Both the position numbers and the translations under genes were made by a program. A stretch of DNA of 64,000 nucleotides from contig JAHDHL010000007.1 in NCBI GenBank assembly GCA_020631355.1, forward strand, positions 62,001-126,000, read 5' to 3'. How positions within the stretch are numbered: position 1 is the stretch's first letter; each line of letters opens with the position of its first letter. The notes under the pieces were generated by a model. The model did no database searches and was not told where the DNA came from. It saw only the letters and a list, made by a program, of their open reading frames with translations. This document shows positions 10,013 through 54,156 of the stretch, in pieces. The DNA comes from Saprospiraceae bacterium (lineage in GTDB: Bacteria > Bacteroidota > Bacteroidia > Chitinophagales > Saprospiraceae).

Positions 10013-10030
10013 ATTCTTGATTCGTTTTAT

Positions 10031-10077: not shown

Positions 10078-10117
10078 CAATAACGGTCAAAAAGGATAGT
10101 TTAAATTTTATTTTATC

Positions 10118-12436: not shown

Positions 12437-12558
12437 TACGCAGGGTATTTACACTGTAACCAGCATCAGATTCAAGGGGAATGAACAGGATTACATGCCA
12501 AGGAGGGGGGATCTTCATAGGATATAGTGATTTCCCCCTCGTTTTTTATCATATACTC

Positions 12559-12659
12559 ACCAAAGTATGCCAACATGGAAGAGCAGCTTTTCGGAATCAT
12601 GATTAGATAGGAGTCATGTGGGAGAGTGCGTGGGAGTTCGAATCTCGCCTTTGGTACCA
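12559..12659 (+). other. tRNA-like sequence B, class II-like, possibly degenerate
   Basis: ACCAAAG (12559-12565) pairs perfectly with CTTTGGT (12649-12655), followed by A and CCA. The T-arm at 12632-12648 is GGGAG-TTCGAAT-CTCGC with 4 of 5 pairs. T8, A9 and a 3-bp D-stem (TGC/GCA) around a loop containing AA..GG..A resemble Leu/Ser-type tRNAs, as does the overall 101 bases. The anticodon arm is poor: the best fit with a U33 reads CAT at 12598-12600 on a 4-of-5 stem that includes a wobble. An alternative 7-bp hairpin spans 12598-12618. It is either a decayed tRNA gene or a non-decoding tRNA-like RNA. Confidence 0.4.
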
Positions 12660-12782
12660 TCAGAAAAATATTACGGAAACCCATCCCCATAAGAATCCGT
12701 TTTTTCTACCCATCAAAATGGAACTAAATAAGCCAGTTGAAGCATTATTCATCCGTAACGTTTATTATTTAATTCCAAAATC

Positions 12783-13490: not shown

Positions 13491-13502
13491 TATTAAAACC
13501 AT

Positions 13503-14426
13503 ATGCCCCTATTCCATCATTCAGACTTGGATGATGGGGTAGTTGGGCTAATACATGATATCCAGAACATCATGATTGACTTACATCAACAATTACAGGA
13601 TTATGCCCAACGGCACCAAATGGACATCGAAGATGCCAAACGGTTGTATGTCTTGGAACAACTGGCCCGATGTATCAGTCGAATCCTCATTTCGCAAGAG
13701 CAACCCGCTTTCATTTTTAGGGGAAGTCTGATATTACAAAATTGGGTCTACCCCAAGAAAAGGGTGGTCAAGGACCTTGATTTCCTTGGAATGGATGGTT
13801 TTGACATGGCTGCCTGCAAACAATTGATTACCCAAGCACTAGGCAGCAATGAGCATTGTCCGGCTGTGGAATTCTATCCTAGCAAGATGGCTTTGATAAA
13901 AACTTGGGTGGAAACTGATTTTCCAGGGACGAGGATCATCATTCCTTATCGGTTCCTAGGAGATGAGGATACCATCCAAATGGATTTTGGTTTTGATGAC
14001 ACGGTATATCCCAAACCAATCATCCATGAATATCAGACCATGTTGGATGATGTTTCCTTTCCCATACCTACGGTTTCTCCCGAAATCGCATTGGCATGGA
14101 AAGTACATGGTCTTTTCGAATTTTGGGATAAGGGATACAGGTGGTCATCCAAGACATTGTATGATATCCATCTCATCCTTACGGAATTAACCATTGACAA
14201 GGAATTATTCGGTAAGGTAATTGGCATTGCATTCGAGGACAAGAATACGCCCATGTGGACGTATCGTAGGGTTTTCAATGGTCAATTCGGACTCAGTAAG
14301 AGCAGTCGCAGGACTTGGAAAGTATTCTTGAGGAAAAATGGTTTGGATGATTTTCCTTGGACCCATTTGGAAATATTGGAAATACACAGGGAATTCCTAG
14401 ATGAATTCTTCATCGAATATGCATGA
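13503..14426 (+). CDS. AbiEii/AbiGii-type nucleotidyltransferase
   Basis: A 307-residue DUF1814-type nucleotidyltransferase. The active-site features are FRGSLIL (73-79), KDLDFLG with Asp91 and Asp93, and IQMDFGF with Asp160. Later blocks LAWKVHGL and KTLYDIHLIL match the C-terminal half of the family. AbiEii proteins are toxins of toxin-antitoxin or phage-abortive systems; the relative MenT3 adds pyrimidines to tRNA 3' ends, especially tRNA-Ser. No AbiEi-type antitoxin is adjacent; the partner here is the 2H-like protein. Toxin activity is therefore uncertain, and a tRNA-end-modifying housekeeping role is possible. Confidence 0.75.
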   Translation: MPLFHHSDLDDGVVGLIHDIQNIMIDLHQQLQDYAQRHQMDIEDAKRLYVLEQLARCISRILISQEQPAFIFRGSLILQNWVYPKKRVVKDLDFLGMDGFDMAACKQLITQALGSNEHCPAVEFYPSKMALIKTWVETDFPGTRIIIPYRFLGDEDTIQMDFGFDDTVYPKPIIHEYQTMLDDVSFPIPTVSPEIALAWKVHGLFEFWDKGYRWSSKTLYDIHLILTELTIDKELFGKVIGIAFEDKNTPMWTYRRVFNGQFGLSKSSRRTWKVFLRKNGLDDFPWTHLEILEIHREFLDEFFIEYA

Positions 14427-14431
14427 TGATG

Positions 14432-14460
14432 GAAAGCCATTTCTTTTTGAAATGGCTTTC
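14432..14460 (+). terminator. Terminator of the 2H-like/NTase operon
   Basis: GAAAGCCATTTC and GAAATGGCTTTC form a perfect 12-bp stem with a TTTTT loop, five bases after the NTase stop codon. The downstream T-run is weak. Confidence 0.6.
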
Positions 14461-14580
14461 GCATTTATTAACTTAGGCTTTGATACCGTGGATATTTGAG
14501 TCTTTCGAAAATGATCCCATGACTGATTCATTTGTCATTCCACCAACCATTCTAGACAATCTCATTACAAATACTTATCC

Positions 14581-15291
14581 ATGAAATATATACTCACACT
14601 TTTCTGGCTTTGTTTCGGTTTGATTATCCAGGCACAATCCGTCATTCTTTTGGAAGAAGAATACGTATCGGGAATATATGAGAACTTGGATATTTCCGAT
14701 AATTTCAATGATATCTCACTTGACCTGTATTTCAAGAACAATACGGATAATGATATCAATGTGAATTGGAAACGGGAATTCAGTGACGAATGTCCCTTGG
14801 AATGGGATGTCCTCACGGCAGACCAAATACTAACCTATACACCACCTGTCAATGAATCGCAAATGCCTATTCCCTTATCACCTACAGATTCTCATATCAT
14901 TGTCCGTCAGATTTTTTGGCCGAATACGATACCCGGGTGTTGTGATATCATGATGACATTCTCCTTGGACGGAGCACCTGAAAATCCGATTGACACGGGT
15001 TATTATCACATTGAAATCAATGCAGAAGCATGTGCCTCAACCAGTGTTCCTGAAGCTTCAGAGGCATCCATTGACATCTATCCCAACCCTGCGGATGACT
15101 TACTTCATATAACCCAAACAGAATCCATCCAGTCTATCAAAATATTTGATACCAAAGGAATGGAATGCTTGGAATTCAAGGAAATAGTCGACAGTTCCTT
15201 GGATATTTCCAAGCTATCACCCGGTCTGTATCATTGTAGTATTACCCACAAGGACCATCGAATCCTACATCATAGATTACTCGTCAGATAA
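14581..15291 (+). CDS. Secreted protein with T9SS sorting domain
   Basis: A 236-residue protein. A signal peptide ends at IIQAQS. The middle region (about 25-155) is beta-rich, with a likely disulfide-rich patch (PGCCDIMM and DEC). The C-terminal about 80 residues are a T9SS type A sorting domain: IDIYPNPADDLLHI, IKIFDTKGM, LDISKLSPGLYHC, HRLLVR. It would be exported and anchored on, or released from, the cell surface. Its stop codon overlaps the next start (TAATG). Confidence 0.85.
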   Translation: MKYILTLFWLCFGLIIQAQSVILLEEEYVSGIYENLDISDNFNDISLDLYFKNNTDNDINVNWKREFSDECPLEWDVLTADQILTYTPPVNESQMPIPLSPTDSHIIVRQIFWPNTIPGCCDIMMTFSLDGAPENPIDTGYYHIEINAEACASTSVPEASEASIDIYPNPADDLLHITQTESIQSIKIFDTKGMECLEFKEIVDSSLDISKLSPGLYHCSITHKDHRILHHRLLVR

Positions 15292-15593
15292 TGAAAAAAC
15301 TCCAAGGAAAAATCGTTCAGCGTTCGTTCATTAATAAGAGGGGAAAGGTGATACCCGATGTATTCGACCTTTATCTCGAACAATGCGATGGGACAAGGAT
15401 TTTCATTAAAACCATAGTTGATTCAGGAGGTATGACCAAAGAGGAACTACTACCCTATCTCAACCAATCCGTAACCGTGCAGGCCAGTCCAATGAATGGG
15501 GAACTCGATTCCAGTCCCAATCTGGATTATCCTGTACAGAGTAGAATAGGAGGATATTTACTGATTCATTCCATCAGTCTTTCGGATTCCTAA
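15291..15593 (+). CDS. Small hypothetical protein
   Basis: A 100-residue soluble protein whose ATG shares its A with the preceding TAA stop, so translation is probably coupled. It has no signal peptide and looks like a small beta-barrel (KIVQRSFINKRGKVIPDVFDLYLEQ, IFIKTIVDSGG, VTVQASPM). Similar short proteins are found in Bacteroidota with no known role. I cannot name the family. Confidence 0.65.
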   Translation: MKKLQGKIVQRSFINKRGKVIPDVFDLYLEQCDGTRIFIKTIVDSGGMTKEELLPYLNQSVTVQASPMNGELDSSPNLDYPVQSRIGGYLLIHSISLSDS

Positions 15594-15607
15594 TCCATAG
15601 GAAAGGC

Positions 15608-15615
15608 TATCTTTG
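15608..15615 (+). promoter_or_regulatory. -7 box close to a start codon
   Basis: TATCTTTG matches the TAnnTTTG element exactly and ends six bases before the ATG at 15621. No exact TTTG lies at the right distance upstream; TTTCG at 15580-15584 is the nearest. As at 1832, a leaderless transcript is suggested. Confidence 0.35.
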
Positions 15616-15620
15616 CCCCT

Positions 15621-17039
15621 ATGGGCCTTGGGACTAAAGATAGCTTAGGAAAACTACTTGGTGATATCCGATTCTGGATATTATTTTTCTTGGTTATCCG
15701 ATTATTCGGAATCACGGATCCCCCCATAGAAATGGGTCATAATTGGAGGCAAGCCTATACCAATATGATTGCCCGTAATTTCCTTGAGATACAGGCTCAT
15801 CCGTTTTATCCGAGAGTGGACCATGCAGGACACCTTACAGGTATCACCGGTATGGAATTCCCCTTGTTGAATTATATGATTTTTGGAATGTCCATGATTT
15901 TCGGATTCGAGCATCATCATGGTAGAATCATCAATCTGCTGGTCAGTAGTATCGGCATCCTTTACTTCTTCAAGTCCGTCAGATTATTATTCAATAGGGA
16001 TGTGGCCCTATACAGTTCCTTGGTCCTACTCCTTTCCATTTGGTTTGCTTTCATGAGAAAATTAATGCCTGATACATTTAGTATGGCACTAGGTTTTATT
16101 GGTATATATTATTTGATACAATATCTCAGGCAAGGAAAGAATCTGTTCGTCCTCCTTTATTTCATCTTCATTACACTAGGAATCCTATCCAAACTACCCG
16201 CACTCATACTGATGAGTCCCTTGGTTATACTTCCTTTTATCAAGGAGGTGGCCCTAAGGAGAAAATGGATCAGTTATATCACTAGTTTCATTAGTGTTGG
16301 TATCGTTGGCCTTTGGTACTTCTATTGGATTCCTCACTTGAATTCCGTGTATGGATTCCCTTTGTTCTATCCTAAGGAAATGGGTGAGGGACTTGCTGAA
16401 ATATCCGGTTTCATTCCCGAACTACTAGAGAAATTCTATTTCAGTGCCTTTCATTCCTTTGTGGCTTTTGCCGTATTTCTCTTGGGTATTTTCCAACTTT
16501 TCAAAAGTAAGAATTCATGGGTCAAATGGGCTTTCGGGGTGGTATGTTTGGTTTTTTCCATCTTCATTATCAAGACCGGGAACTTCTTTCCCCAACACAA
16601 TTATTACATCATACCCTTTGTGCCCTTCATGGCCATATTGGTGGGTATGGCCATAGAATCCTTTCCTCCCAAATGGGCCTATCTCGTTCTCATTATTATC
16701 GGGGTGGAAAGTATTGCGAACCAGCAACACGATTTCTTCATTCGTTCGGATAAGGAATATGTCCTTGGATTGGAATCACTTTGTGATGAATACATTCCCA
16801 AAACATCACGAATCATCATCAATGGTGGGAATTCTCCTATGCTGATGTATTTCAGTCATCGGAAAGGATGGTCCGTTTCGCCATCAACATTGAAGGACGA
16901 TTTTCAGATTCGATTCAGGAAGAATCTGGGTGCGGAATACATCATTATAGACAAACATCAAGATATGGAATCCCTAACCGGTTATCCATTAATCTATTCT
17001 GATGCACATTTTGACATTCTTAGTTCAGAAAAAGATTAG
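15621..17039 (+). CDS. GT-C-type membrane glycosyltransferase (ArnT/PMT-like)
   Basis: A 472-residue integral membrane protein with about ten hydrophobic segments and a soluble C terminus (about 375-472). The first periplasmic loop has the acidic, aromatic pattern of GT-C enzymes (PPIEMGHNWRQAYTNMIARNF, then GMEFPLLNY), and the second carries FMRKLMPDTFSM. These enzymes transfer a sugar or other group from a polyprenyl phosphate to a periplasmic acceptor. Donor and acceptor cannot be inferred. It stands alone, converging on a regulator gene. Confidence 0.75.
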   Translation: MGLGTKDSLGKLLGDIRFWILFFLVIRLFGITDPPIEMGHNWRQAYTNMIARNFLEIQAHPFYPRVDHAGHLTGITGMEFPLLNYMIFGMSMIFGFEHHHGRIINLLVSSIGILYFFKSVRLLFNRDVALYSSLVLLLSIWFAFMRKLMPDTFSMALGFIGIYYLIQYLRQGKNLFVLLYFIFITLGILSKLPALILMSPLVILPFIKEVALRRKWISYITSFISVGIVGLWYFYWIPHLNSVYGFPLFYPKEMGEGLAEISGFIPELLEKFYFSAFHSFVAFAVFLLGIFQLFKSKNSWVKWAFGVVCLVFSIFIIKTGNFFPQHNYYIIPFVPFMAILVGMAIESFPPKWAYLVLIIIGVESIANQQHDFFIRSDKEYVLGLESLCDEYIPKTSRIIINGGNSPMLMYFSHRKGWSVSPSTLKDDFQIRFRKNLGAEYIIIDKHQDMESLTGYPLIYSDAHFDILSSEKD

Positions 17040-17048
17040 GGGTAACTA

Positions 17049-17948
17049 TCAATGTTCTGACAGGACTAACCTATACCCTACTCCCCTGATATTGATGATT
17101 CGTAAGTTAGGGTCAGCTTCTAATTTCTTACGAAGTTTGGAGATGAATACATCCAGGGTTCTTCCTACATAATCACCATCATCGCCCCATATTTCCCTGA
17201 GTATTACCTGACGTTCCACGGGTTCGTTGGAAGATGCATGAAGCAATGCCAACAATGCTGTTTCCTTGTGGGATAAATCCGTTTTTTCTTTTCCTCTTGT
17301 CAATGTCATCGCATTGGTATCGAATGTATAGGAACCAATGATTACGGTATCCTCATTGATGACCTTCTTTTGGCGAAAGAACATGAACCCAAGGAAAGAT
17401 AGAATAAGAACCAAAGGGAATATCCACCAGAATTTCGAATAGGAAGTATTCAAATCCATGGCAGCCAACATAGAACCCTTTGCTACGAAGTTGGACATGG
17501 GTGGAGGCTGGTCGAGAAAGGTAATCCAGAAATGGTAACAATCCCTCGGCATTTCCCGCCCTCCACAAGGCAGTATTCCGTTCCCTCCCAACTCAAAACT
17601 ATGTACGATTTCATTGGTTTCGCATTCTTCTGTTTCTACTATGCATTTAGGTTCGGCACCTGATGCAGTCAGTACACTATCCACTATACCTATGATATCT
17701 GCCGGTTTGAAAGAGATGGGTTGTTCCAATGGAATACGATATCTATTATTCACGTATTCAATGGCTAGGACACGGGATGTATCGTCACCGAGATGTTTCA
17801 GTATCTCATGCCCAATCATTCGCATGACCACCTTGTTGTGCCTAACTTCCTGTTCACTCTCATGGGTAGCCCACAAGGTAGTGGTACCTAGCCATAGTAC
17901 CATGAAATAACTGATACGCAATCCCACTTTCATCTTATCACTTCGCAT
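17049..17948 (-). CDS. Membrane-anchored ToxR-like winged-helix regulator
   Basis: A 299-residue one-component transmembrane regulator. A signal-like segment at the N terminus is followed by a periplasmic sensor domain of about 150 residues with several Cys (CIVETEECE, GILPCGG, PRDCYHF). One membrane segment (about 175-193, FWWIFPLVLILSFLGFMFF) precedes a C-terminal OmpR/PhoB winged helix (about 205-297, with VERQVILREIWGDD and LDVFISKLRKKLEADP). The topology puts the DNA-binding domain in the cytoplasm. It is divergent from a TonB-like gene, its probable target. The start may be the internal MKVGLRI. Confidence 0.88.
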   Translation of the reverse strand: MRSDKMKVGLRISYFMVLWLGTTTLWATHESEQEVRHNKVVMRMIGHEILKHLGDDTSRVLAIEYVNNRYRIPLEQPISFKPADIIGIVDSVLTASGAEPKCIVETEECETNEIVHSFELGGNGILPCGGREMPRDCYHFWITFLDQPPPMSNFVAKGSMLAAMDLNTSYSKFWWIFPLVLILSFLGFMFFRQKKVINEDTVIIGSYTFDTNAMTLTRGKEKTDLSHKETALLALLHASSNEPVERQVILREIWGDDGDYVGRTLDVFISKLRKKLEADPNLRIINIRGVGYRLVLSEH

Positions 17949-18088
17949 ATTACAAATGTATGCCTCATGGATTCCAAATGCAGCACTAAACCTCCATTTT
18001 ACGTTGATTTTACACTATTTTACATTCATTCAACATCCCAAAACACCTTTGCCCGTATCTTTGAATAGCATTATTTAAAGTAAGAGAC

Positions 18089-18847
18089 ATGAGATTAGTC
18101 ATTATCATCAGTTTGATTTTCGTTTCGTTCCTCAGTTACACTCAGGAATGTACAGAAGTACAATATGAAGTGAATAAGGTTTTTCCTTTCATTTCCCTTT
18201 CCATGGAAAATATTCAGAAAGCCACTACCCTATCCGACCTTGACCCAAGGGGAAGAATGTACAAATCCATTTGGATTAAGGAATTCAAATCCGTTGACAT
18301 TATGGCTTCCGTAAATGGAAAAACGGAAGTAGCCACCGGAAATGATGAGCTATTGAATGAACGGCAGAAAGCACTCATTACCAAAGCTGATTTAGGAAAG
18401 GAGATTGAAGTTAGGATTTCCTATATCCCCAACAATAATCTCAAATACAATGATGTAAAGGAAATCAGTTTCGATTTTTGGGTCAATCCCCAAGAGGAAG
18501 CTGCTTTTGTTGGAGGCCAAAAAGCTTTGAACCAATATATTGAACAAAATGCCATCAGCCAGATACCCTCCGGTACATTTACGGGATATAAGATTACCAT
18601 CATCACATTCACCGTTACATCAGAGGGTTTAATCCGGGAGCCCGAATTATTCACATCCTGTGGCGATGAAGCGGTGGACCAAGCTATTCTAAGCTCCGTC
18701 TGTAATATGCCTACCTGGAATCCTGCCAGTTATAACAAAGGCCCAAAAGTCAATCAAAAATGTGCCTTACTGGTTGGCAATATGGAAAGTTGCATGGTCA
18801 ATACCCTTAACATCAAGGCCTCAAAAATTATGGAAGCGAATCATTAA
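18089..18847 (+). CDS. Periplasmic protein with a TonB C-terminal-like domain
   Basis: A 252-residue protein with a signal peptide (ending near LSYTQE), a middle region without recognisable motifs, and a C-terminal TonB-like fold (about 150-230). That domain includes FVGGQKALNQYIEQN, TFTVTSEGLIREPELFTSCGDEAVDQAIL and MPTWNPASYNKGPKV. It lacks the membrane anchor and proline-rich spacer of true TonB, so it is probably not an energy transducer. Proteins of this type are often divergent from ToxR-like winged-helix regulators in Bacteroidota, as here. Confidence 0.75.
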   Translation: MRLVIIISLIFVSFLSYTQECTEVQYEVNKVFPFISLSMENIQKATTLSDLDPRGRMYKSIWIKEFKSVDIMASVNGKTEVATGNDELLNERQKALITKADLGKEIEVRISYIPNNNLKYNDVKEISFDFWVNPQEEAAFVGGQKALNQYIEQNAISQIPSGTFTGYKITIITFTVTSEGLIREPELFTSCGDEAVDQAILSSVCNMPTWNPASYNKGPKVNQKCALLVGNMESCMVNTLNIKASKIMEANH

Positions 18848-18927
18848 TTACCATCCATTCATACTTTTTTCAAAAAAATCAGGGTCATCTGCAACAAAAC
18901 GGATTTTCTCCGCACCTTTAAAAGTAG

Positions 18928-19485
18928 ATGGCACATGAAGCACATACCGAAACCGCTTTAATCAAAGCTTGTATCAAGGGAAATCGCAAAGCCCAGTTTT
19001 CCTTATATGGACAGTACAAAACCTATCTCTATGGGATCTGTCTGCGATATGCCAAATCCCCACAAGAAGCACAGGATATCCTACAAGAGGGATTCTTCAG
19101 CATCCTCAGGGATATCAAGCAATTCAGCGGACAATCACCACTCAGGGCTTGGATGAGAAAGGTCATGGTCAATGCGGCCCTGATGCACATCAGAAAACAT
19201 AGGAAAATCGAATTCTCGGCACTTGAGGTAGACAAGCTCGATCATATACACTACTCCGAGGACACATTCCAAATCATGGATAGAGCTAATGCCGTTATCC
19301 ATCTCATCCAACAACTTCCTGTTTCCTATCAGACTGTCTTCAACCTCAGGGCTATGGAAGGATATTCCTTTAGGGAAATATCCCAACAACTGGGTGCCAA
19401 TGAAGCTACACTCAGGTCCCATTTCCTGAGGGCTCGGAAACAATTACAGCAAATCCTGAACAAAGAATTGAATAAGAATGGATGA
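18928..19485 (+). CDS. ECF RNA polymerase sigma factor
   Basis: A 185-residue sigma-70 family protein with region 2 (about 20-90: FSLYGQYKTYLYGICLRY, EAQDILQEGFFSILRDIKQF, LRAWMRKVMVNAALMHIRK) and region 4 (about 125-180: LPVSYQTVFNLRAMEGYSFREISQQLG, EATLRSHFLRARKQL). It directs RNA polymerase to a specific regulon and overlaps the next gene by 8 bases. That gene is membrane-anchored, which fits a sigma/anti-sigma pair. Confidence 0.93.
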   Translation: MAHEAHTETALIKACIKGNRKAQFSLYGQYKTYLYGICLRYAKSPQEAQDILQEGFFSILRDIKQFSGQSPLRAWMRKVMVNAALMHIRKHRKIEFSALEVDKLDHIHYSEDTFQIMDRANAVIHLIQQLPVSYQTVFNLRAMEGYSFREISQQLGANEATLRSHFLRARKQLQQILNKELNKNG

Positions 19486-44456: not shown

Positions 44457-46397
44457 TTATGGTATGATGATTTTTTCAATAATAGAATGACCATCCTTAT
44501 TTTCAAAAAGGATGATGTATAATCCTGATCCCCCTGGAATGGAGATGTCATACTGACCCGTTTGTTGCTTCTTATGTTGTAGGGAACGGCCATTCACATC
44601 ATAAACTGTGTAGGCATGTATTTCTTCTGATTGTACCGTTACCATTCCATCTGCAGAAAGATTCGACAATACCTTGATGAATGGTGTACCATTAAAGAAT
44701 TCGGATGTGCTTACAAATGTTCCCACATCAACGGAACGCTCCTTAATGAGTATGGGTTGTCTATCCGCAGCATCGAACATGGCTCTGAATTCATCAATCT
44801 CATCCGATTGTTCTGAAAACATTTCCTCCATCCATTTAGGAGGAGCCGTCTGATAATAAACCCTTGCAGTAGCAGTAAGTTCACCATTCTCCCCATTCGT
44901 GGGAACATGGAAATACAACTTATCCCCACCCGTTCCTTCCTGACCATTATCCAGGTTGAAATTCTCATCTGTTTCCGCCATTCCAACGACCCTCACAGTA
45001 TCATATACCGTATGGCTTGAGGAGAATCCCTCCGGAGCCAATCTATTATCCTTAAGGGCATGGTCTCCCCTTACGAGAACTGTCGTAACATCATTATTGA
45101 CATCCGCCATGACCATTTCGTAAATCTGTACTTCATCCTCTGAACGGATAATATCATAATGTGGTTCATAATCCGCATTATGCCCTACGACCTCAAAATC
45201 ATCATCGGTCCTACCTGAAATAAAGAGGGTATCACCTTGTTCGTTTTCTACCAAGAATTCTACGAATGCCCTACGGGAAGGATAACCCGAGGGAAACTTA
45301 TGCCCGGCCAGATTCAGCATATCCACCTCAAAGAATACGGTATCAGCCGTGCGGTCAAGGAAGTTCAAATCAAGGGCGATACTCTTGTTGTATAACATAT
45401 CCTCAGTGGCCATAATGGCCTGAGTGAACTGTTCGTAATTGGCCGTAAGGCCCAATTCATCTATATGGTCCCTGAAAATCTTCAGCATGAATACATTCGC
45501 TCCGGCCAATTCGTGGAGGTAGAATGGGCTCCTGGGTTCTGTTTCATAGCCCGCAGCAATCAGAACCTGTCCCTTGGCCATGGCTTCCATATGGCAATTC
45601 TGGCAAGAAACACCATCGTTTTCATACTTGGAATTAAGCCATTCGTGATAAGTGGCCTGCTCTACGAATGATGTTCCGGTATAATTTCCATCATAATCCA
45701 ATGTTTCCGTAACGAGCGTATGGCAACCTGCACAAATTCCTGCATCACTGATATGTTCACTATATACCGGCTGATAGGTACTGGCCATCACCATAGGGCT
45801 TTCCAATGGACTGATGTATGGCCCATAAGCAACCCTTGTGGTATCAAAGTTCAGATGCCCGGAATGCAAGCTTCCCAATTCCTTATCTGATTGTTGGTGA
45901 CAAGCCAAGCAGGAAACACCATCCAATGCAATTGAGTCACTCATCATTTCTGCCATGGAATAATATTCCTGTCCATTGTGCAATGCGGCAAAATGTCCCA
46001 TCGGAGCATGGCAGGAAGTACACTTGTGTTCTATGGCTTGCTGGTGCTGTGGATACAACAATACCTCATGGCTTACCTTTGCTCGCCAGAAAGGATCCTT
46101 GGATGAATTGGCCATCATGGTAGCCCGCCAATCATCCACAAGGTTGATATCATTCCCCAAGGGATCGACACTGGCTATTCCGGCCGTATCCATTCCATGA
46201 CATTGGATGCATTCCCCTGAACCGGCAAAAAGGACATTGAATCCACCGGGTAATGAATCCGCCATCATTTCAAATTGCAATTTCTCGAATTCGGAATGGA
46301 AGTTATCATTAGCAGTAGCCATTCTGAGTGGGAGCTCCGCCAAGAAAGGAATGGATACAATTACAAAGAAGATGAGAATCTTTTTCTTTCTGCTCAT
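44457..46397 (-). CDS. Pentahaem c-type cytochrome with T9SS domain
   Basis: About 646 residues from the preferred start MSRKKKILIFF, which places the export signal at the N terminus (an earlier ATG at 46445 adds 16 residues). Five CxxCH haem sites are present: GECIQCH, HKCTSCH, VSCLACH, GICAGCH and VSCQNCH, all in the first 285 residues, as in cytochrome c554-like electron carriers. The C-terminal half is beta-rich and ends with a T9SS-like sorting domain (VYDVNGRSLQHKKQ, SGLYIILFENKDG). A surface-exposed multihaem protein is implied. Its operon partner is the FG-GAP/ASPIC protein. Confidence 0.88.
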   Translation of the reverse strand: MSRKKKILIFFVIVSIPFLAELPLRMATANDNFHSEFEKLQFEMMADSLPGGFNVLFAGSGECIQCHGMDTAGIASVDPLGNDINLVDDWRATMMANSSKDPFWRAKVSHEVLLYPQHQQAIEHKCTSCHAPMGHFAALHNGQEYYSMAEMMSDSIALDGVSCLACHQQSDKELGSLHSGHLNFDTTRVAYGPYISPLESPMVMASTYQPVYSEHISDAGICAGCHTLVTETLDYDGNYTGTSFVEQATYHEWLNSKYENDGVSCQNCHMEAMAKGQVLIAAGYETEPRSPFYLHELAGANVFMLKIFRDHIDELGLTANYEQFTQAIMATEDMLYNKSIALDLNFLDRTADTVFFEVDMLNLAGHKFPSGYPSRRAFVEFLVENEQGDTLFISGRTDDDFEVVGHNADYEPHYDIIRSEDEVQIYEMVMADVNNDVTTVLVRGDHALKDNRLAPEGFSSSHTVYDTVRVVGMAETDENFNLDNGQEGTGGDKLYFHVPTNGENGELTATARVYYQTAPPKWMEEMFSEQSDEIDEFRAMFDAADRQPILIKERSVDVGTFVSTSEFFNGTPFIKVLSNLSADGMVTVQSEEIHAYTVYDVNGRSLQHKKQQTGQYDISIPGGSGLYIILFENKDGHSIIEKIIIP

Positions 46398-46613
46398 GGA
46401 ATAGGTTGGAATGGTTCGTTCTCTATTGTAGTAAAAATAACGCAAATAAGCTATATCATTTCATTCAAGATGATATTATGACAAATAGTAGGCATAAGGA
46501 ATATGGAATCTCCCCACATAGATTACTTTCTGCAAGCTTTACGTTAAATGACATATGCCAAAAATACCTTATTTTTAAGATATCGTAACAATGATGCCTT
46601 CAAAGAACAGGAT

Positions 46614-47387
46614 ATGATACGCAAGATTGGGTTCTTTTCCTTTTGTCTTATACTCTATGCCTGCCAGTATAATAGCAGGGATAACCCTACAATCCAAGCA
46701 GAAGCAGATACTGTCGAATCGGAAATACATCAGGATGCACGCGAATACTTCACCGCCTATTCAGTTGAGGAAGCCATGGCTGACCCTGAGGGAGTGATAG
46801 AATTATACCTTCGGAATGATAAGCAATTGACCCAATTGCCCGTGGATATTGGCAAGATGGTCAATCTGAGGGTGTTGAATGTATCAGGTACGAAAATCAG
46901 GACCATTCCCAATAGTATATCCAATTGCAAATATCTGTCAGAAATCATTGCCAATGCCTCCCGCATCACAACAATCCCCGATTCCATCGGTGAATTGGGG
47001 TTTCTTAGAAAATTGAATTTTGGATACAATGCCATTGATTCTATTCCCAGCTCATTGGGACAATTGGTGGGTTTGGAAGAATTGAATCTGGGTAGCAATC
47101 ATATTAGTCAATTACCAGATTCATTTGCAGGATTGAAACATTTGACATTCTGTGATGTTTCTGATAATGAATTAGAAATATTCCCTGATGCCATTTTAGG
47201 TCTTGAAAAAGTGGGAAATTTATGGATGCATGGAAATGCATTCGACTCAATTCCTAAAGAAATACAATTACTCAAAAATCTCCATCACTTTCTAGTTGAC
47301 GCACATGAAATTAAGAATATCAAGGAGATTGAAGCATTGATTCCCGGAGTCTATATCATTGATGAATACGAAAGAAATAAAAATTAA
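46614..47387 (+). CDS. Leucine-rich-repeat lipoprotein
   Basis: About 257 residues from MIRKIGFF; a longer frame from 46548 lacks the signal at its N terminus. A lipobox-like LILYAC gives a lipidated Cys. From about residue 70 there are seven LRRs of the bacterial type, such as LTQLPVDIGKMVNLRVLNVSGTK, IPDSIGELGFLRKLNFGYN and IPSSLGQLVGLEELNLGSN. LRR lipoproteins usually bind proteins or glycans at the cell surface. The ligand is unknown. An AT-rich operon starts 50 bases downstream. Confidence 0.85.
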   Translation: MIRKIGFFSFCLILYACQYNSRDNPTIQAEADTVESEIHQDAREYFTAYSVEEAMADPEGVIELYLRNDKQLTQLPVDIGKMVNLRVLNVSGTKIRTIPNSISNCKYLSEIIANASRITTIPDSIGELGFLRKLNFGYNAIDSIPSSLGQLVGLEELNLGSNHISQLPDSFAGLKHLTFCDVSDNELEIFPDAILGLEKVGNLWMHGNAFDSIPKEIQLLKNLHHFLVDAHEIKNIKEIEALIPGVYIIDEYERNKN

Positions 47388-47436: not shown

Positions 47437-48711
47437 ATGAGAATTAACATCATATTTTCCACCCTTAACACCAACAACACAAAACACTTATTAAACAGCA
47501 TTCAACAACAAATAAAACTTGAAAAAAACATACTGAATCCTCATCGGGTTCACATACACATTCTCGACAAGACAATCCTACAAGAGGTTTCTGATATATT
47601 AGTACAAAAGGAATGGAATTTCGAAACAACGGTTTGTAACAAAAGAGAAATACGAACCCTAGAAACCAAATACAAAGTACTAATAAGAAGTATTCGTTTG
47701 AATATCGAACGGGATAGTATCCTAAGGACTAGAATCCAACAATTCCTATATATCAATAATAATAAAAACATTTTCGAGCAATCCATTATCTGGCAATTGG
47801 ATGATGATATGCTTTTCCATGGGCTAAGGGTTAAGGATGGAAAATTATCCTATTTTAATAAGAATTATTTCCAACAACTCATTCAACTTTATCTAACCAA
47901 AGGACATGAAATAGATGCAATTATCGGAGGAAGTTCGCTCGTACCTCCAATTCCCTCTTTTTTGTATTGCGAATCACAATTGAAAGATATTATCCATAGA
48001 CAACATCATATCGGAACCCACCAACAAGTCCTTGAACAAGGGTATCATGATTTTGAAAATAGATTACAGAATCAGCAGCAGCATTACTTGGATTTATATC
48101 CTAATCTTGATGCCATATCCAAAGTGGAATTCATCCTAAAAGGCATTCCTGTCAGTAGAATCACGCTTACCGATATCGGTCATCTGAATCCACGACCATC
48201 ACAATTACACAGAGGAGGTAATTTTATTATTTTCAATCCCAATATATTGGATATCCCTCATATCGGAATTCCATTAAAAAACGGCAAACCCGCACGAAGA
48301 AGTGATATGATTCACGCCCTATTGCTTCGGGATTTGAATTTCAACATCATGGATATTCCATATTTTTCCTTGATACACCAAAGGAATTTCGAAACTGTCC
48401 ATTTGGATGCCTCCTTGAAAAAATATAGGGAGGATGCTTACGGAGCCTTGTTTGTCAAATACCTGACTTCAGGAAAAAAAGCTTTTTTCGAGAGGCTACA
48501 ATTTTACCAAAAGCATCTTTATCGTATTGTAGCATTATTAAATAACGAAAAACTAAAAGGGCATTTTTCCAAGGAAGCAACAATCATTCAGAACGAAGCA
48601 TCACACTTCAGGAATTTCAATATTCCAGAATGGCTGAATAAATTCGAACAACAAAAAATAATGTACCATGACATCAAAGAAAAACTTGCAGATCGGTATC
48701 ATTGGTTCTAA
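47437..48711 (+). CDS. Glycosyltransferase-like protein
   Basis: A 424-residue AT-rich gene product, first of six overlapping genes. The N terminus has an alpha/beta pattern (RINIIFSTLNTNN, VHIHILDKT). The segment IIWQLDDDMLFHG (about 117-129) looks like the DxD metal/nucleotide-sugar motif of a GT-A fold, followed later by HRGGNFIIFNP and MIHALLLRDLNF. The C-terminal about 90 residues are helical. Glycosyl transfer is inferred from the DDD motif and layout only. The next gene begins 44 bases before its end. Confidence 0.6.
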   Translation: MRINIIFSTLNTNNTKHLLNSIQQQIKLEKNILNPHRVHIHILDKTILQEVSDILVQKEWNFETTVCNKREIRTLETKYKVLIRSIRLNIERDSILRTRIQQFLYINNNKNIFEQSIIWQLDDDMLFHGLRVKDGKLSYFNKNYFQQLIQLYLTKGHEIDAIIGGSSLVPPIPSFLYCESQLKDIIHRQHHIGTHQQVLEQGYHDFENRLQNQQQHYLDLYPNLDAISKVEFILKGIPVSRITLTDIGHLNPRPSQLHRGGNFIIFNPNILDIPHIGIPLKNGKPARRSDMIHALLLRDLNFNIMDIPYFSLIHQRNFETVHLDASLKKYREDAYGALFVKYLTSGKKAFFERLQFYQKHLYRIVALLNNEKLKGHFSKEATIIQNEASHFRNFNIPEWLNKFEQQKIMYHDIKEKLADRYHWF

Positions 48712-49186
48712 TTCTAGTGTTTGTTCCAAGGAGCTGTATACATTTGCCTTTAACTTGGGTAAGGCATTGGCAGACGAAGGATATATACTCTTGAACGGAG
48801 GCATGCAGGGTGTAATGGAAGCCGTTTCCAAGGGAGCCCAACAATCCGACAACAAGAATTCCAGGGTTATAGGAATCCTACCTTTTGACCATAGGGAAAC
48901 ATGTAATGATTACCTAGATATCGTTATCCCAACAGGAGTGGGATTTGCGAGGAATGCCATCCTCGTCCTTTCTTCTGACATCCTGATTGCACTAGGAGGC
49001 GGAGCAGGAACATTGAATGAAATCAGCTATGCCTGGCAATTCAATAAAAAAGTATTCTGCCTTACCCAAACCGAGGGTTGGAGTGCAAAAATAGCTGATA
49101 CGAATATTGATCATAGAAAGTCAGATTTATTAATTGGCTTCAAGGATATCAGCGAAGTCATCCAAAACATAAGGAACCATGAATAA
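48668..49186 (+). CDS. LOG/TIGR00725-type nucleotide-binding protein
   Basis: A 172-residue Rossmann-like protein: LQIGIIGSNSSV at the first strand, LLNGGMQGVMEAVSKGA, and ALGGGAGTLNEISYAW containing the GGxGTxxE motif of the lysine-decarboxylase-like/LOG superfamily. The start is fixed by the first strand, so the 44-base overlap with the upstream gene is real. LOG proteins cleave nucleotide N-glycosidic bonds or bind nucleotide-derived signals. In this operon it may supply or remove a nucleotide moiety, which is inference. Confidence 0.85.
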   Translation: MTSKKNLQIGIIGSNSSVCSKELYTFAFNLGKALADEGYILLNGGMQGVMEAVSKGAQQSDNKNSRVIGILPFDHRETCNDYLDIVIPTGVGFARNAILVLSSDILIALGGGAGTLNEISYAWQFNKKVFCLTQTEGWSAKIADTNIDHRKSDLLIGFKDISEVIQNIRNHE

Positions 49187-49997
49187 GGTACTGATGTTCC
49201 ATAGGATACTTCCCCAACAAATGATATCGGAAAATGATGCATATTACCAAAGGGGAACATTAATCAGTTGTGAATTATTGGAAAAGGTCATTTTGTTTTT
49301 CCAACGTTCCAATTATGAATTCATAACTCTAAACCAACTCGAAAAAGAAGATAAAAATAAGGTGGTCCTTACTTTTGATGATGGCTATGAGGACAATTAT
49401 TCATATGTCATTCCCCTTCTTGAAAAATACGGCATTAATGCTACTTTCTACCCTACTCTGGGATATTGTCTGAATCAAGATGTAGCCCCCTTGGATTATT
49501 ATTATCATCATGTCAATAATCATATTAAGGATAATCGGAAACAGGATTGGATTACAGGTTCGATTAAAAAAAGTTTCATCAGCCTGAATCATGAACAACA
49601 AAAAAAATTCATTCATAAAATTTATAAAAACAAAAATCTACCATCCGTAAAGGATATCGGATTAAGATATATGGATATGGAACAAATTTGTTCCTTACAG
49701 GAAGCAGGTCATGAAATTGGTGGCCACAGTATGTATCATGATATCTACACCTACATCAGTACCGAAAAAGTAAGGCAGGACCTAACCGAGATGATGTTTC
49801 ATTTTAATCAATATGGAATCCACATTTCATCATTCGCTTACACGGATGGACAATATTCCAATGATATTATCCATGAATTATTACAAATGAATATAAAGAA
49901 AGCCTGCACCATCCATTCCTTAGGAATCAATCCGGAATATCCTATGGAAATAGAAAGGTCATTCATTAACTCAACCTGGTATGAAAATAACATCTGA
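49179..49997 (+). CDS. Polysaccharide deacetylase (NodB-type)
   Basis: A 272-residue carbohydrate esterase 4 protein. Motif 1 is VVLTFDDGYEDN (Asp67-Asp68) and motif 2 is IGGHSMYHD (His183, His187), forming the Asp-His-His metal site. The N terminus KVLMFHRILP matches the polysaccharide-deacetylase enzymes that act on exported sugars, but no signal peptide is present, so it would work in the cytoplasm on a precursor. It overlaps the LOG-like gene by 8 bases. Confidence 0.87.
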   Translation: MNKVLMFHRILPQQMISENDAYYQRGTLISCELLEKVILFFQRSNYEFITLNQLEKEDKNKVVLTFDDGYEDNYSYVIPLLEKYGINATFYPTLGYCLNQDVAPLDYYYHHVNNHIKDNRKQDWITGSIKKSFISLNHEQQKKFIHKIYKNKNLPSVKDIGLRYMDMEQICSLQEAGHEIGGHSMYHDIYTYISTEKVRQDLTEMMFHFNQYGIHISSFAYTDGQYSNDIIHELLQMNIKKACTIHSLGINPEYPMEIERSFINSTWYENNI

Positions 49998-51603
49998 AAA
50001 TATTCTGGATTTCAATCGACTATTGGGAATAGATATGGGTCCCCCGATAAAATCCCAACTAGATGATATCATTCGTATAGCTGCGGAAAAAATACCTTGG
50101 CAGAATATTTCAATGATTCATCAATATTTCAGAAAAGCACCTTCGAACAAGGAAATCATCAATAATATCATTTCAGGAAAAGGAGGTATCTGTTTGGGTA
50201 TTAACCGATTCATGCTCCACTACCTGAAAGCATTGGGATATAATGCACAATATATCCTATGTAGTAGGAAAAATAATAAACGGAATCACTTGGCTCTGAT
50301 TGTCCGTATCCGACAGCAGATTTTCTTTGTTGATTTCGGTGATGCCCAACCCTATTATGAAGCTTTGGACATCAGTAATCCCAAGGAAATAATCAGGGGC
50401 GATATTAGATTCAGAATCAGCGCCAGAAAAAAAGATTATCTAATAGAAAGATATATCAGGGGCCATTGGTATTTCCATTACGAATTCAATCTGGAACGAG
50501 TAAGGGAGGTGGAAATCCAAGCATTGGTTCATCGATATCATCATGATATTTTTTATGGTCCTTTCTGGAAAGATATTCATTGGGCGGCCTACCCTGAACA
50601 AAAATTGAGAGCCATTAAAAATACGACCCTCATTATCGAATCTGATGATGGAATCATTCGAAAACATCCTTATCAAAAAAGTGATTTACTGCATCAACTA
50701 GGCCATTATCTCAACTTGGGAATTGCGGATTGTAACAAAATTGGAAAAGCATTCAACCAACTCAGGAAAATCAACCAATCGGAACGATTCGGATTACAAT
50801 TATCGGATAAGGAAATCCAAGGATTCCTATCCTCTATACATTTGGATCACGCTGAGATAACAATGGCATTCCTAATACGATTTATCCGACAGGTATTATC
50901 TGAAATACCATTCCAGAATTTCAAGATGATTGAAAGGGGATTCGGACACATTCCTACAAAAAATGATATCAAGGAAGATATGTTATCCCTGAGGGGAGGA
51001 ACTTGCGCGACCATGAATACCTTTTTGGGCTGTGTACTTTATTCCTTGGGATTTGATATTTGCCTTATCAGTGGTACGATGCAAAAACAAGATGACCATT
51101 TCGCCTTATTATTATCGCTTGACAATAAGAAATATGTCGTGGATATGGGAGATGGGCAGCCATATTTTTCTCCTTTCGAAATACAAGAAAAGTCACTTAT
51201 CCATCATCATCCATTCAGGACATATAGGGTATCATCCTCTGATGTCCAACAAATGCAGATTGAATTCCTAATCCAAGGAGAATGGAAAAGGGATGTCACT
51301 TATCATATCCGCCCCCAACCCTTTTCATTCTTCAGAAAGACACTGGAAAATCATTACACCAAAAAAGCCTTTGGTCCTTTTTGGCGAGGTTTGCGATATG
51401 CCATTTATCCCCAACAAAGATTATTATCCGTCAGGGATGATATCATCAAGGTACAACAAGTGGACAATACCATAAAACATATATCCTTTAACAATGTAAA
51501 TGAATTCAAACAATTATTAACCCAATATGAATTCATTTGTAAAAAAGAATTATTACAATGCTATCAAAAATTAAAAACATATGATATCACAGAAAGAAAT
51601 TGA
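49981..51603 (+). CDS. Tandem arylamine N-acetyltransferase-like protein
   Basis: A 540-residue protein made of two NAT-like halves (about 1-265 and 285-540). Half 1 has IPWQNI, GKGGICLGINRF with Cys71, NHLALIV with His103, and VDFGDAQPYY with Asp118. Half 2 has IPFQNF, LRGGTCATMNTF with Cys342, DHFALLL with His373, and VDMGDGQPYF with Asp388. Both Cys-His-Asp triads are intact. Known NATs are single domains of about 255-285 residues that move acetyl or longer acyl groups from CoA; relatives close amide bonds in natural-product pathways. A double enzyme is unusual. It overlaps both neighbours (17 and 23 bases). Confidence 0.82.
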   Translation: MKITSENILDFNRLLGIDMGPPIKSQLDDIIRIAAEKIPWQNISMIHQYFRKAPSNKEIINNIISGKGGICLGINRFMLHYLKALGYNAQYILCSRKNNKRNHLALIVRIRQQIFFVDFGDAQPYYEALDISNPKEIIRGDIRFRISARKKDYLIERYIRGHWYFHYEFNLERVREVEIQALVHRYHHDIFYGPFWKDIHWAAYPEQKLRAIKNTTLIIESDDGIIRKHPYQKSDLLHQLGHYLNLGIADCNKIGKAFNQLRKINQSERFGLQLSDKEIQGFLSSIHLDHAEITMAFLIRFIRQVLSEIPFQNFKMIERGFGHIPTKNDIKEDMLSLRGGTCATMNTFLGCVLYSLGFDICLISGTMQKQDDHFALLLSLDNKKYVVDMGDGQPYFSPFEIQEKSLIHHHPFRTYRVSSSDVQQMQIEFLIQGEWKRDVTYHIRPQPFSFFRKTLENHYTKKAFGPFWRGLRYAIYPQQRLLSVRDDIIKVQQVDNTIKHISFNNVNEFKQLLTQYEFICKKELLQCYQKLKTYDITERN

Positions 51604-52666
51604 TGCTTATCATGAGCAGGGGTATCTCATCATCCGGAATTTCATTTCGGACGAAAAAGTGGAGCAATTGCGATTGAGATACCATTCGCTCAGAAAGAAA
51701 CTATCAGAAGCATCCAATATACAATACGAGGATTATGAAAGGGAAATATCCCAAGTAAGGGATATCTGGAAATTTGATGATGATTACCGAAGATTATTAT
51801 TGGAAGATGAGATTGCCCGGGCGGTTCCCCAATTTTTCGCCAATAAAAGTGGGCGACTCCTACACGACCATATTATCCATAAGCCCAAGGGGAATAATGG
51901 TATCGTTCCTTGGCATCAGGATTACACCTATTGGCCCGTAGACCAATCGAACGGACTTTCTTTCTGGATACCCCTTGAGGATTTGGATGAACAATCAGGC
52001 GTTTTGGAAGTCATTCCCAAATCTCATTCGAAAGGAGAGGAAGCACCCGTCGATTTTATTAATAATCAGAAACAATTCCCTAAAAATGACATTCGTTTCC
52101 TTACTGTCAACAAAGGGGATCTGGTCGTGCTTCACTCCTTGACCTGGCATCGGACATCCGAGAATATTTCCGTTCCTCAACGCACCGCCTATATTTCGCT
52201 TTGGATAGATAGCCAAGCCAAATATGCCCCCAAACATGCAGATTGGCATCCCGTCAATGATAACGTAACGGTCAATGAGGGAGAAATTCTCAATGAGGAC
52301 TGGTTTCCATCCGTAGGTTTGTCGCAGAAAAAATCTGCAGGTACGAATTACGTGGATAATTCATCCATTGAGAAAAAAAATACGATTACCATGTTCAATG
52401 CCTCCAAGGTGGTGCGAAAATTCCTGACGAAAAAAATAGGACAGAAGGATTGTATCTGGACCTATCTGTATTCCAAGGAAAATAGAATGGCCACCGTTGA
52501 TGTTCTGGACCAGAGAAAAGCGTTCACGCCTCAGGATAAAAAAGAAATAGATGCTTCCCTGCTCTCCCTTGCCATCAACGGATTGGCGTACAAGCATCAC
52601 AGGGGGAGGAATGTCTACAATAAATCTTATGTCACCTTCAAGAAATATTTCCAATATGAATTTTAA
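51581..52666 (+). CDS. PhyH-family Fe(II)/2-oxoglutarate dioxygenase
   Basis: A 361-residue protein. The first about 250 residues are a phytanoyl-CoA dioxygenase-type domain: YHEQGYLIIRNFI, VPWHQDYTYWP with His112 and Asp114, NGLSFWIPLEDLDEQSGVL, and LTWHRTSEN with His190 completing the iron triad. Arg201 is the likely 2-oxoglutarate contact. A further about 100 residues (from about 260 on) form an unrecognised C-terminal domain with FNASKVVRKFLTKK and DVLDQRKAF. PhyH enzymes hydroxylate or otherwise oxidise small molecules in many biosynthetic clusters. Confidence 0.87.
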   Translation: MISQKEIDAYHEQGYLIIRNFISDEKVEQLRLRYHSLRKKLSEASNIQYEDYEREISQVRDIWKFDDDYRRLLLEDEIARAVPQFFANKSGRLLHDHIIHKPKGNNGIVPWHQDYTYWPVDQSNGLSFWIPLEDLDEQSGVLEVIPKSHSKGEEAPVDFINNQKQFPKNDIRFLTVNKGDLVVLHSLTWHRTSENISVPQRTAYISLWIDSQAKYAPKHADWHPVNDNVTVNEGEILNEDWFPSVGLSQKKSAGTNYVDNSSIEKKNTITMFNASKVVRKFLTKKIGQKDCIWTYLYSKENRMATVDVLDQRKAFTPQDKKEIDASLLSLAINGLAYKHHRGRNVYNKSYVTFKKYFQYEF

Positions 52667-53459
52667 TTATGACCGATATTTTGATACACTCAAAACCCTG
52701 GTTTCCAATAATGCGATTACGGATAATGATTCAGGATTGAAAAAGAATATTGATTTTATTATCCATTATCTCGAGGAGTTGGATTTTGATATAGAAATCC
52801 ATGCGAAAGAACATGCAACTCCAGTAATTTATGCCCATAGGAAATCGGTAAATAGTGATTTCAGATTGGGAATGTATGCGCATTATGATGTGGAGCCTAC
52901 CGACGAACAACAATGGTACACACCATCAACCGTTCTTACCCAAAAGGAAGATAGGATTTTTGGCAGGGGCGTAGCGGATAATCTCGGCATCCTACTCATG
53001 AGATTCCAAGCAGTGGAATACATGGTTGAACAACAAAAAGTACCTGAAATCCATTGGCTGTTCCAAGGACAGGAGGAAATACAATCACCACTTGCACATC
53101 AGCTATTCCCTAAACTGGATATAGGCGCAGTGGATATTTGGTTGGAAGAAACAGGTTATTTTGACATCAGTACACTCCGGCAGAGGTATCTGATTCTCAA
53201 TGAGAATCAGACGACCCATGAGGTCTTGGAAAAAGCCAAGGAATTACTCCCTGAAATGGAATTCACTTCCTATTCGGAATACAGAAGTCTGACTAAATTC
53301 GACCCTTGTCCATTCCTGAATCATATTCTAAAAAATACGGCTTATTTGGCCATTGGACCCAACGATGAATATTCCAATATCCATATGCCCAATGAGAGTC
53401 TTTCCATCCCTTTGATAGAGAAATCATATGACCAGATGGTTTCTATTCTTGGAATGTGA
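52656..53459 (+). CDS. Lidless M20-family metallopeptidase-like protein
   Basis: A 267-residue protein with all the metal and catalytic marks of the M20 family: YAHYDVEP (His76, Asp78), GRGVADNLG (Asp108), FQGQEEIQ (Glu140-Glu141), WLEETGYFD (acidic ligand) and NIHMPNES (His243). The usual dimerisation (lid) domain of about 110 residues is missing, so it is far shorter than the normal 370-450. It may be a single-domain hydrolase or ligase-like enzyme for an amide in this pathway. It starts 11 bases inside the PhyH gene and ends the overlapping run. Confidence 0.78.
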   Translation: MNFNYDRYFDTLKTLVSNNAITDNDSGLKKNIDFIIHYLEELDFDIEIHAKEHATPVIYAHRKSVNSDFRLGMYAHYDVEPTDEQQWYTPSTVLTQKEDRIFGRGVADNLGILLMRFQAVEYMVEQQKVPEIHWLFQGQEEIQSPLAHQLFPKLDIGAVDIWLEETGYFDISTLRQRYLILNENQTTHEVLEKAKELLPEMEFTSYSEYRSLTKFDPCPFLNHILKNTAYLAIGPNDEYSNIHMPNESLSIPLIEKSYDQMVSILGM

Positions 53460-53496: not shown

Positions 53497-54099
53497 ATGG
53501 AGATACAACTCATACAACAAACATTGAATGGCGAGGATATTCAATATATCATTCCATTAAATTCCAAAAAACTGGATATTCCAATGGATGATTATTCCAC
53601 CTCAACTGGATTAATTGAATATTTGGTCATATTGGCCCTTTGCCTAGTTCCGACCTTTTTCCTTATGGGAATATTCGGATTTATCCTAATGGATTTGGGA
53701 GGAGGCAATATCCGATTCTCTACCCTCCTTATGATGGGTCTTTTCATTTTGACCCTATTCATTTATTTCACAAGTATTATTTATGAGCGTTTCATAAAAT
53801 CTTATCCTAGTGTTGTCCTAATTATTACTGACAAGGATTTATATTATTTTCTTTTGAATCAGAATTATATAAAAAAATATAATTCATTCGATTTGGAAAT
53901 GGATAATCTAGGATCCTATTTTTTTGGCGATGTGAATGCAGACAATAATAAGATGGGAGAAAAGATTGTGATTGAAAAAGACGGGGACATATTACTCAAA
54001 GGCAGGATTAACATCAAGGATAAGGCATTATACTCTCCTCTCTTTAAAAAGGACCAATTCATTCCTCTAGGGGAACTCAGGGAATTATTCCTACAATAA
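53497..54099 (+). CDS. Two-segment membrane protein
   Basis: About 200 residues from MEIQLIQQ (an earlier frame start at 53428 overlaps the previous gene). Two membrane segments (about 40-65 and 75-97: LVILALCLVPTFFLMGIFGFIL; STLLMMGLFILTLFIYFTSII) are followed by a cytoplasmic C-terminal domain resembling a PH-like or DUF fold (VVLIITDKDLYYFLLNQN, KIVIEKDGDILLKGR). Function unknown. It follows the peptidase gene after 37 bases and may be the last gene of that operon, before a strong terminator. Confidence 0.68.
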   Translation: MEIQLIQQTLNGEDIQYIIPLNSKKLDIPMDDYSTSTGLIEYLVILALCLVPTFFLMGIFGFILMDLGGGNIRFSTLLMMGLFILTLFIYFTSIIYERFIKSYPSVVLIITDKDLYYFLLNQNYIKKYNSFDLEMDNLGSYFFGDVNADNNKMGEKIVIEKDGDILLKGRINIKDKALYSPLFKKDQFIPLGELRELFLQ

Positions 54100-54110: not shown

Positions 54111-54156
54111 ATAAAAATATCCCTTATTACTGGTCAGTAATAAGGGATATTTTTAT
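54111..54156. terminator. Bidirectional terminator
   Basis: The arms on either side of TGGTCA (54131-54136) are perfectly complementary over about 20 bp (ATATCCCTTATTAC / GTAATAAGGGATAT, extended by A/T pairs). It sits between convergent genes. Confidence 0.88.

Follow-up and report, generated by a model that had tools for sequence, protein, structure and literature searches.

In the biosynthesis of the peptidyl-nucleoside antibiotics blasticidin S and mildiomycin, a nucleotide N-glycosidase frees a base, which a glycosyltransferase then joins to a different sugar, and the molecule is completed by amide chemistry and a metallopeptidase. Nod factors (lipochitooligosaccharides) are made by a glycosyltransferase, a cytosolic CE4 deacetylase and an N-acyltransferase, with an optional sulfotransferase and methyltransferase. 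Two further protein families act on the bond between base and ribose: LOG-like SLOG proteins release free bases from nucleotides (PMC9503650), and COG3236 (NADAR) cuts the N-glycosidic bonds of the early intermediates which RibA makes on the way to riboflavin (PMC5312566). We describe here a locus which can be compared with all of these systems. It consists of six overlapping genes in a stretch of 64,000 nucleotides (hereafter the window: positions 62,001 to 126,000 of contig JAHDHL010000007.1, assembly GCA_020631355.1) from a Saprospiraceae bacterium. The genes encode a putative glycosyltransferase (GT), a SLOG protein, a CE4 de-N-acetylase, a tandem arylamine N-acetyltransferase-like protein (NAT-NAT), a PhyH dioxygenase and an M20 amidohydrolase. 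Because these families are found together again in eleven other clusters, reordered and with several fusions, we conclude from this comparison that the six genes belong to one pathway. With a confidence slightly short of even, we propose that the cluster family is mobile, modular, cytoplasmic and biosynthetic and that it makes a glycosylated, amide-bearing small molecule, probably derived from a nucleotide.

The original prediction, made from the letters of the window, had drawn the idea of one pathway from the overlaps between successive genes (44, 8, 17, 23 and 11 bases), and these are exact by the coordinates of the open reading frames (ORFs); for M20 the start taken is the ATG at 52656, which agrees with the homologues, instead of the start at 52551 in the ORF list. 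Overlaps are found in 11 of the 34 co-oriented neighbour pairs of the window, and five of these 11 are those of the cluster. The stronger evidence comes from the relatives. We used the GT as search bait because it is rare, sampled about 1,840 of 97,973 species, and obtained eleven further clusters in Bacteroidota, on one Pseudoalteromonas plasmid and on one phage contig (Table 1). The homologues of GT, SLOG, CE4, M20 and NAT are not scattered singly, and the single pathway is thereby upheld. The biosynthetic character of the set is upheld as well. The families recur, but no other genome showed the exact six-gene set, which had been taken as a unit, and PhyH is absent from all eleven other clusters. 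This would suit unrelated genes packed by chance or by general genome compaction, an explanation which we consider very improbable indeed: the same families come back in eleven other clusters in varied orders and fusions, and overlap is far rarer among the neighbouring genes of the window.

Table 1. Features of the window and of the related clusters. Architectures come from a domain scan and follow the order of transcription; a hyphen denotes a fusion. GT2, second glycosyltransferase; KIN, kinase-like domain; MT, methyltransferase; propeller, our reading of a 335-aa protein without Pfam match. In the L017 protein Pfam confirms both GT2 stretches, and the assignment of the second GT was made by eye.
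Feature	Source	Positions	Strand	Description
GT	window	47437-48711	+	424 aa; putative GT-A-like glycosyltransferase; marker protein defining the cluster family
SLOG	window	48668-49186	+	172 aa; LDcluster4/TIGR00725; predicted nucleotide N-glycosidase (phosphoribohydrolase-like)
CE4 de-N-acetylase	window	49179-49997	+	272 aa; motifs intact; no signal peptide
NAT-NAT	window	49981-51603	+	540 aa; tandem arylamine N-acetyltransferase-like acyltransferase, Cys-His-Asp triad per half
PhyH	window	51581-52666	+	361 aa; Fe(II)/2-oxoglutarate dioxygenase with 116-aa C-terminal extension of no assigned family
M20	window	52656-53459	+	267 aa; lidless metallo-amidohydrolase
Hairpin, 20-bp stem	window	54111-54156	.	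probable two-way transcription terminator ending the unit
Window cluster	window	47437-53459	+	GT, SLOG, CE4, NAT-NAT, PhyH, M20
L003	Aureispira metagenome-assembled genome			GT, SLOG, CE4, propeller, TP-methylase
L007	genome of the window's order			SLOG, CE4, GT2-GT-KIN-MT, DUF1152, sulfotransferase
G436 (L009 with L061)	second genome of the window's order			integrase-like ORF, SLOG, CE4, GT2-GT-propeller, M20, AsnB, NAT
L010	Pseudoalteromonas donghaensis plasmid	12721-19243		GT2-KIN-GT, RibA-NADAR, AsnB, NAT
L018	complete Bacteroidota genome			SLOG, GT2-GT-KIN, M20, AsnB, NAT
L017	IMG/VR phage contig	8873-14272		single 1799-aa protein GT2-GT-KIN-MT-GT-GT2-SLOG
L040 and L041	two further genomes of the class			SLOG, CE4, GT2-GT-KIN-MT, sulfotransferase
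L042	further genome of the class			SLOG, GT2-GT-KIN, sugar epimerase, DUF1152, M20, AsnB-NAT
L044	further genome of the class			FGE-like, TP-methylase, M20, AsnB-NAT-GT2-GT, RibA-NADAR-KIN
L043	same genome as L044			CE4, GT2-GT with stops, partial propeller; adjoins DDE transposase

Beyond the families of the window, the relatives contain GT2, the kinase-like domain, AsnB, the propeller, a sulfotransferase and methyltransferases. At least five distinct fusions are found (GT2-GT-KIN-MT, GT-propeller, AsnB-NAT, AsnB-NAT-GT2-GT, a single protein of 1453 aa in L044, and RibA-NADAR-KIN), to which is added the fusion of SLOG to GT in the phage contig, and up to seven domains are joined in one protein. 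Between L042 and L044 the identity is 89% for M20 but 20% for the GT, which indicates that the modules move independently. As the sequences show, the parts of the family travel, swap and fuse together. A mutual exclusion of CE4 and AsnB, considered at one stage, was dropped once the second half of the G436 cluster was found; this cluster is split over two contigs that have 55 end bases in common and across which the same protein continues.

For the first protein, GT, neither Pfam nor PHROGs offers a family; no NCBIfam model reaches its cut-off, and the PDB gives no match, even to the profile. Its motifs are DDD (122-124), RGGN (259-262) and RRSD (287-290), and 35 columns of an alignment of 12 sequences are conserved at 90% or more. 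Homologues are present in all relative clusters and are fused to GT2 in most of them; it is on the DDD motif and on this repeated fusion that its putative glycosyltransferase nature rests. The GT profile aligns only weakly to its GT2 partners (probability 5.8), with no convincing homology. Window and L003 share 31% identity in this protein and have 17-24% to the other clusters. These two form a divergent branch of the family, as judged by the GT comparison. The window version differs further by its standalone GT, its tandem NAT and its PhyH. The kinase-like domain was found nowhere in the whole genome of the window, and the window operon has neither GT2 nor AsnB; therefore its chemistry, and with it the product, may differ from that of the main branch. 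In all eight cluster copies of the kinase-like domain (L007, L010, L017, L018, L040, L041, L042 and L044), as in a Salinivibrio cousin discussed below, Asn stands at the position of the catalytic Asp in the HRD motif, while DYG is kept (NIKPxN...IDYG). The domain may therefore transfer a group other than phosphate, or only bind a nucleotide.

The second protein matches the Pfam family LDcluster4 (1.2e-41; 142.3 bits against a cut-off of 26.3) and TIGR00725 (143.5 against 106.9 bits). It had been called LOG-like, but it is a SLOG of this family and no LOG (cytokinin riboside monophosphate phosphoribohydrolase) equivalog, for whose model it scores 45.4 bits against the 300 required. It nevertheless keeps Arg95 and Glu118 and the sequence GGGAGT, that is, the Arg and the residues of the GGxGTxxE type. 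It is 43-51% identical to the other cluster SLOGs. The cluster SLOGs make up a tight group (259-288 bits to their own profile), set apart from the housekeeping LOG proteins of the same genomes, which do not exceed 51.5 bits. The two intact clusters without SLOG, L010 and L044, have RibA-NADAR. The genome of L044, the one RibA-NADAR genome checked (the rest of the genome of the L010 strain was not searched), holds no cluster-type SLOG anywhere, and its degraded locus L043 has neither protein. What SLOG and RibA-NADAR would have in common is that they free a base, or else a ribose phosphate, from a nucleotide. This exchange, the most informative clue, together with the activities cited above for the two families, leads us to favour a nucleotide-derived product.

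The catalytic motifs are intact in all five enzymes recognised by Pfam (SLOG, CE4, NAT-NAT, PhyH and M20). CE4 matches the polysaccharide deacetylase family PF01522 (8e-19; 68.3 against 23.1 bits), with TFDDGY at 65 and HSMYH at 183-187 (HSxxH) and with no hydrophobic N-terminus; it falls below the equivalog cut-offs of PgaB, NodB, PdaA and the other named CE4 subfamilies (best 41.2 against 321.9 bits). CE4 homologues adjoin the GT in L003, L007, L040, L041, L043 and L061. NAT-NAT matches PF00797 in two stretches (1e-35; 124.1 against 22.8 bits) and has the triads GGIC68/NH102/VD117 and GGTC339/DH372/VD387; the fold model and both triads predict an acyltransferase. Single-domain relatives of it occur in L009, L010, L018, L042 and L044. 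The juxtaposition of a GT, a cytosolic CE4 and an acyltransferase in the window recalls the Nod factors: the GTs would make a short amino-sugar compound, which CE4 would de-N-acetylate and NAT would N-acylate before hydroxylation, sulfation or methylation, and the sulfotransferase and methyltransferase of the relatives would complete the reaction chain of NodC, NodB, NodA, NodH and NodS. Nevertheless, we found no NodA or NodC homologue in the clusters, the NodB model gives 19 bits where 240 are required, CE4 is missing from several clusters that do have NAT, and SLOG, RibA-NADAR and M20 are left unexplained, all of which makes such a compound quite improbable.

PhyH matches PF05721 (1.3e-29; 104.4 against 22 bits) and has the iron site HxD...H (WHQD at 111, HRT at 190); its closest solved relative is the dioxygenase MysH (3.5e-22), and its C-terminal extension (52316-52663) has no match in Pfam. 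M20 matches PF01546 (4.2e-15; 56.6 against 24.6 bits), and its metal ligands and catalytic Glu (H76, D108, E140, E141, E165 and H243) are invariant in five cluster members. Its 267 aa include no lid or dimerisation domain, and the matches to full-size M20 models and structures cover mainly the N-terminal catalytic part. Among the collections searched, full-length lidless relatives were found only within the clusters.

A hydropathy scan detected no signal peptide and no clear membrane segment in the six cluster proteins, and the clusters showed neither an exporter, a flippase or a polymerase nor a conserved precursor peptide. Between the metabolite and the surface sugar which the original prediction had left side by side, we favour a cytoplasmic small molecule because signal peptides, flippase, polymerase and exporter are all missing. 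A ribosomally made and modified peptide was looked for as well: no short precursor ORF recurs among six relatives in the 500 bp ahead of the first gene. In the other of the two readings the genes serve to build or alter a cell-envelope oligosaccharide, by deacetylation, acylation, sulfation and uronamide formation. The GT2 and GT domains, CE4, the sulfotransferase, AsnB and the sugar epimerase of L042 all suit such a decoration, and in the case of AsnB, amidation of uronic acids is known for O-antigens. We still regard it as improbable, as no priming or lipid-linked step is seen in any cluster either, the CE4 lacks a signal peptide, the phage and plasmid copies lie away from polysaccharide loci, and there is no place in it for SLOG or RibA-NADAR.

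The six genes are best read as one transcription unit closed by the hairpin (self-match of 52 bases, 92%); a short ORF preceding it (53428 or 53497 to 54099) may or may not belong to the unit. Upstream, the leucine-rich repeat (LRR) gene at 46548-47387 probably lies outside the system, because its homologue in a same-genus genome stands amid other neighbours. Divergent from it, at 44457-46445, is a gene for a cytochrome-c-like protein that has several CxxCH motifs and, at its C-terminus, a sorting-like tail. Horizontal acquisition had been proposed from the AT-rich composition. The GC content of the six genes is indeed lower (37.7% against 41.1% in the rest of the window), but 6 of 116 sliding windows of equal length are as low or lower, so that this mild signal speaks only weakly for acquisition. 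The scattered distribution and the module swapping are better evidence of horizontal spread. In four sets of genomes, counting in the window's own or the centre genome, the cluster was present in 3 of 396, 2 of 395, 1 of 249 and 5 of 395. A DNA search found it in none of eight same-genus genomes, several of them incomplete, and the same-genus contigs showed no syntenic flanks for an empty-site comparison.

Several further loci were met in the search. Viral scans with the M20 and NAT profiles gave no match. The second viral match of the kinase profile, L046, is no cluster but a long polyvalent phage protein whose kinase-like domain is generic; it was set aside, as were the GT2 matches in Sinorhizobium, which are ordinary or unannotated. 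The Salinivibrio plasmid L011 has GT2 and the kinase-like domain without the DDD glycosyltransferase and is a cousin only; at 11992-17465 it shows GT2, a kinase-like-domain protein with further GT-like parts, and then an opposite-strand hypothetical protein and a radical SAM protein. The L010 cluster directly follows the conjugation genes TraV and TraC. L044 is headed by an FGE-sulfatase-like protein (15136-16044) beside the TP-methylase, a possible additional tailoring step, and the second cluster copy of the same genome, L043 (8054-10905), is decaying, with stops within the GT and the DDE transposase upstream. Sugar-nucleotide genes adjoin two relatives, the epimerase in L042 and an ORF like UDP-glucose dehydrogenase, assigned by eye, in L017. 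Beside the G436 cluster (L009, 1-14265) lies an apparent diversity-generating retroelement, whose reverse transcriptase (9150-10148) stands among several FGE/C-type-lectin-like proteins with similar C-termini.

Conflict genes neighbour three of the 12 clusters: L018 adjoins type I restriction-modification, PDC-S26 and PDC-S69 genes, the gene of the large L017 protein comes directly after a type II restriction-modification pair, and L041 adjoins a TOTE primase-helicase. The whole might thus be a conflict or anti-phage system, in which the cell or the mobile element gains protection from the product, or from its modification of nucleotides or of another cellular target. The sporadic and mobile distribution (an integrase in L061, IS21-type genes in L042, the plasmid of L010) and the lack of an exporter would fit, and conflict systems based on nucleotides commonly contain SLOG and NADAR (PMC9503650). 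On the other side, no window protein convincingly matches PADLOC (there is only a weak partial CorA-like match to PhyH, 18.6 bits, 3.8e-4), nor do the large proteins of L018 and L017; other clusters, that of the window included, lie among ordinary genes, and no effector or sensor is obvious. We therefore think a conflict system unlikely, but a plausible and live rival.

In the small-molecule pathway that we prefer as the most economical reading, SLOG, or RibA-NADAR in some clusters, would cleave the N-glycosidic bond of a nucleotide and yield a free base or a base-derived unit. The DDD glycosyltransferase, mostly with a GT2 partner, would build or attach a sugar from a nucleotide sugar, CE4 would strip the acetyl group from an amino-sugar nitrogen, and the NAT protein would acylate the amine through a cysteine thioester. 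PhyH would hydroxylate the product, and the lidless M20 would hydrolyse an amide, either to trim the product or to release a protecting group; in the relatives, the extra enzymes would contribute a carboxamide (AsnB) as well as sulfate and methyl groups. The succession of these steps and their chemistry are a proposal, built on family membership, motifs, co-occurrence and cytoplasmic character read from the sequence. Several points weigh against it. SLOG proteins can act as sensors, not enzymes. AsnB, CE4 and the sulfotransferase equally suit polysaccharide decoration, the window operon is without the kinase-like domain, GT2 and AsnB, and the GT is without a recognised fold (its predicted structure, from three sequences, has a mean pLDDT of 38.5 and was not used for a fold search). 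We infer substrate, product and chemistry for every member. Finally, RibA-COG3236 fusions occur in ordinary riboflavin operons too (PMC5312566).

The original prediction, whose observation is confirmed and whose interpretation is partly supported, knew of no described cluster of this kind. We found none in the literature searched (most subscription papers lie outside it), and papers on CDC123 operons and on viral NADAR networks gave no prior description. A bolder and rather doubtful reading is that of an undescribed mobile class, present in Bacteroidota, on a proteobacterial plasmid and in a phage, which makes a new kind of glycosylated amide derived from a nucleobase. SLOG and RibA-NADAR would supply the base interchangeably, and the product might act as an intracellular defence compound. 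The GT without Pfam family and the distinctive SLOG clade give a handle for finding this apparently undescribed pathway, which moves between phyla, plasmids and a phage. A new nucleotide-derived sugar amide, if that is the product, would be a new class of natural product, and a defensive role would mean immunity of a new, biosynthetic sort. The exchange of SLOG and RibA-NADAR makes the first step of the pathway directly testable.

Compared with known systems, the clusters share with the viral SLOG-NADAR-Macro conflict networks the presence, in phages too, of SLOG and NADAR domains acting on nucleotide N-glycosidic bonds, but they are dominated by glycosyltransferases, GTP cyclohydrolase and asparagine synthase, none of which a text search of the paper found mentioned (PMC9503650). 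L010 and L044 carry the same two domains as the RibA-COG3236 fusions of riboflavin operons (PMC5312566); their version replaces SLOG, lies among GT, AsnB and NAT genes and not among rib genes, and in L044 is additionally fused to the kinase-like domain. With the ansamycin amide synthases (GdmF), chains of which are among the solved relatives, NAT-NAT has in common the NAT fold and the Cys-His-Asp triad, but it consists of two domains in tandem, and no polyketide synthase stands among the genes read. The GT, CE4, acyltransferase and optional tailoring are those of the Nod-factor pathway, to which the clusters add SLOG, M20, AsnB and PhyH. Finally, although the clusters use other enzyme families than blasticidin S and mildiomycin, without an aminotransferase or radical SAM core, their proposed logic is alike: base release, sugar transfer, amide chemistry and a metallopeptidase.

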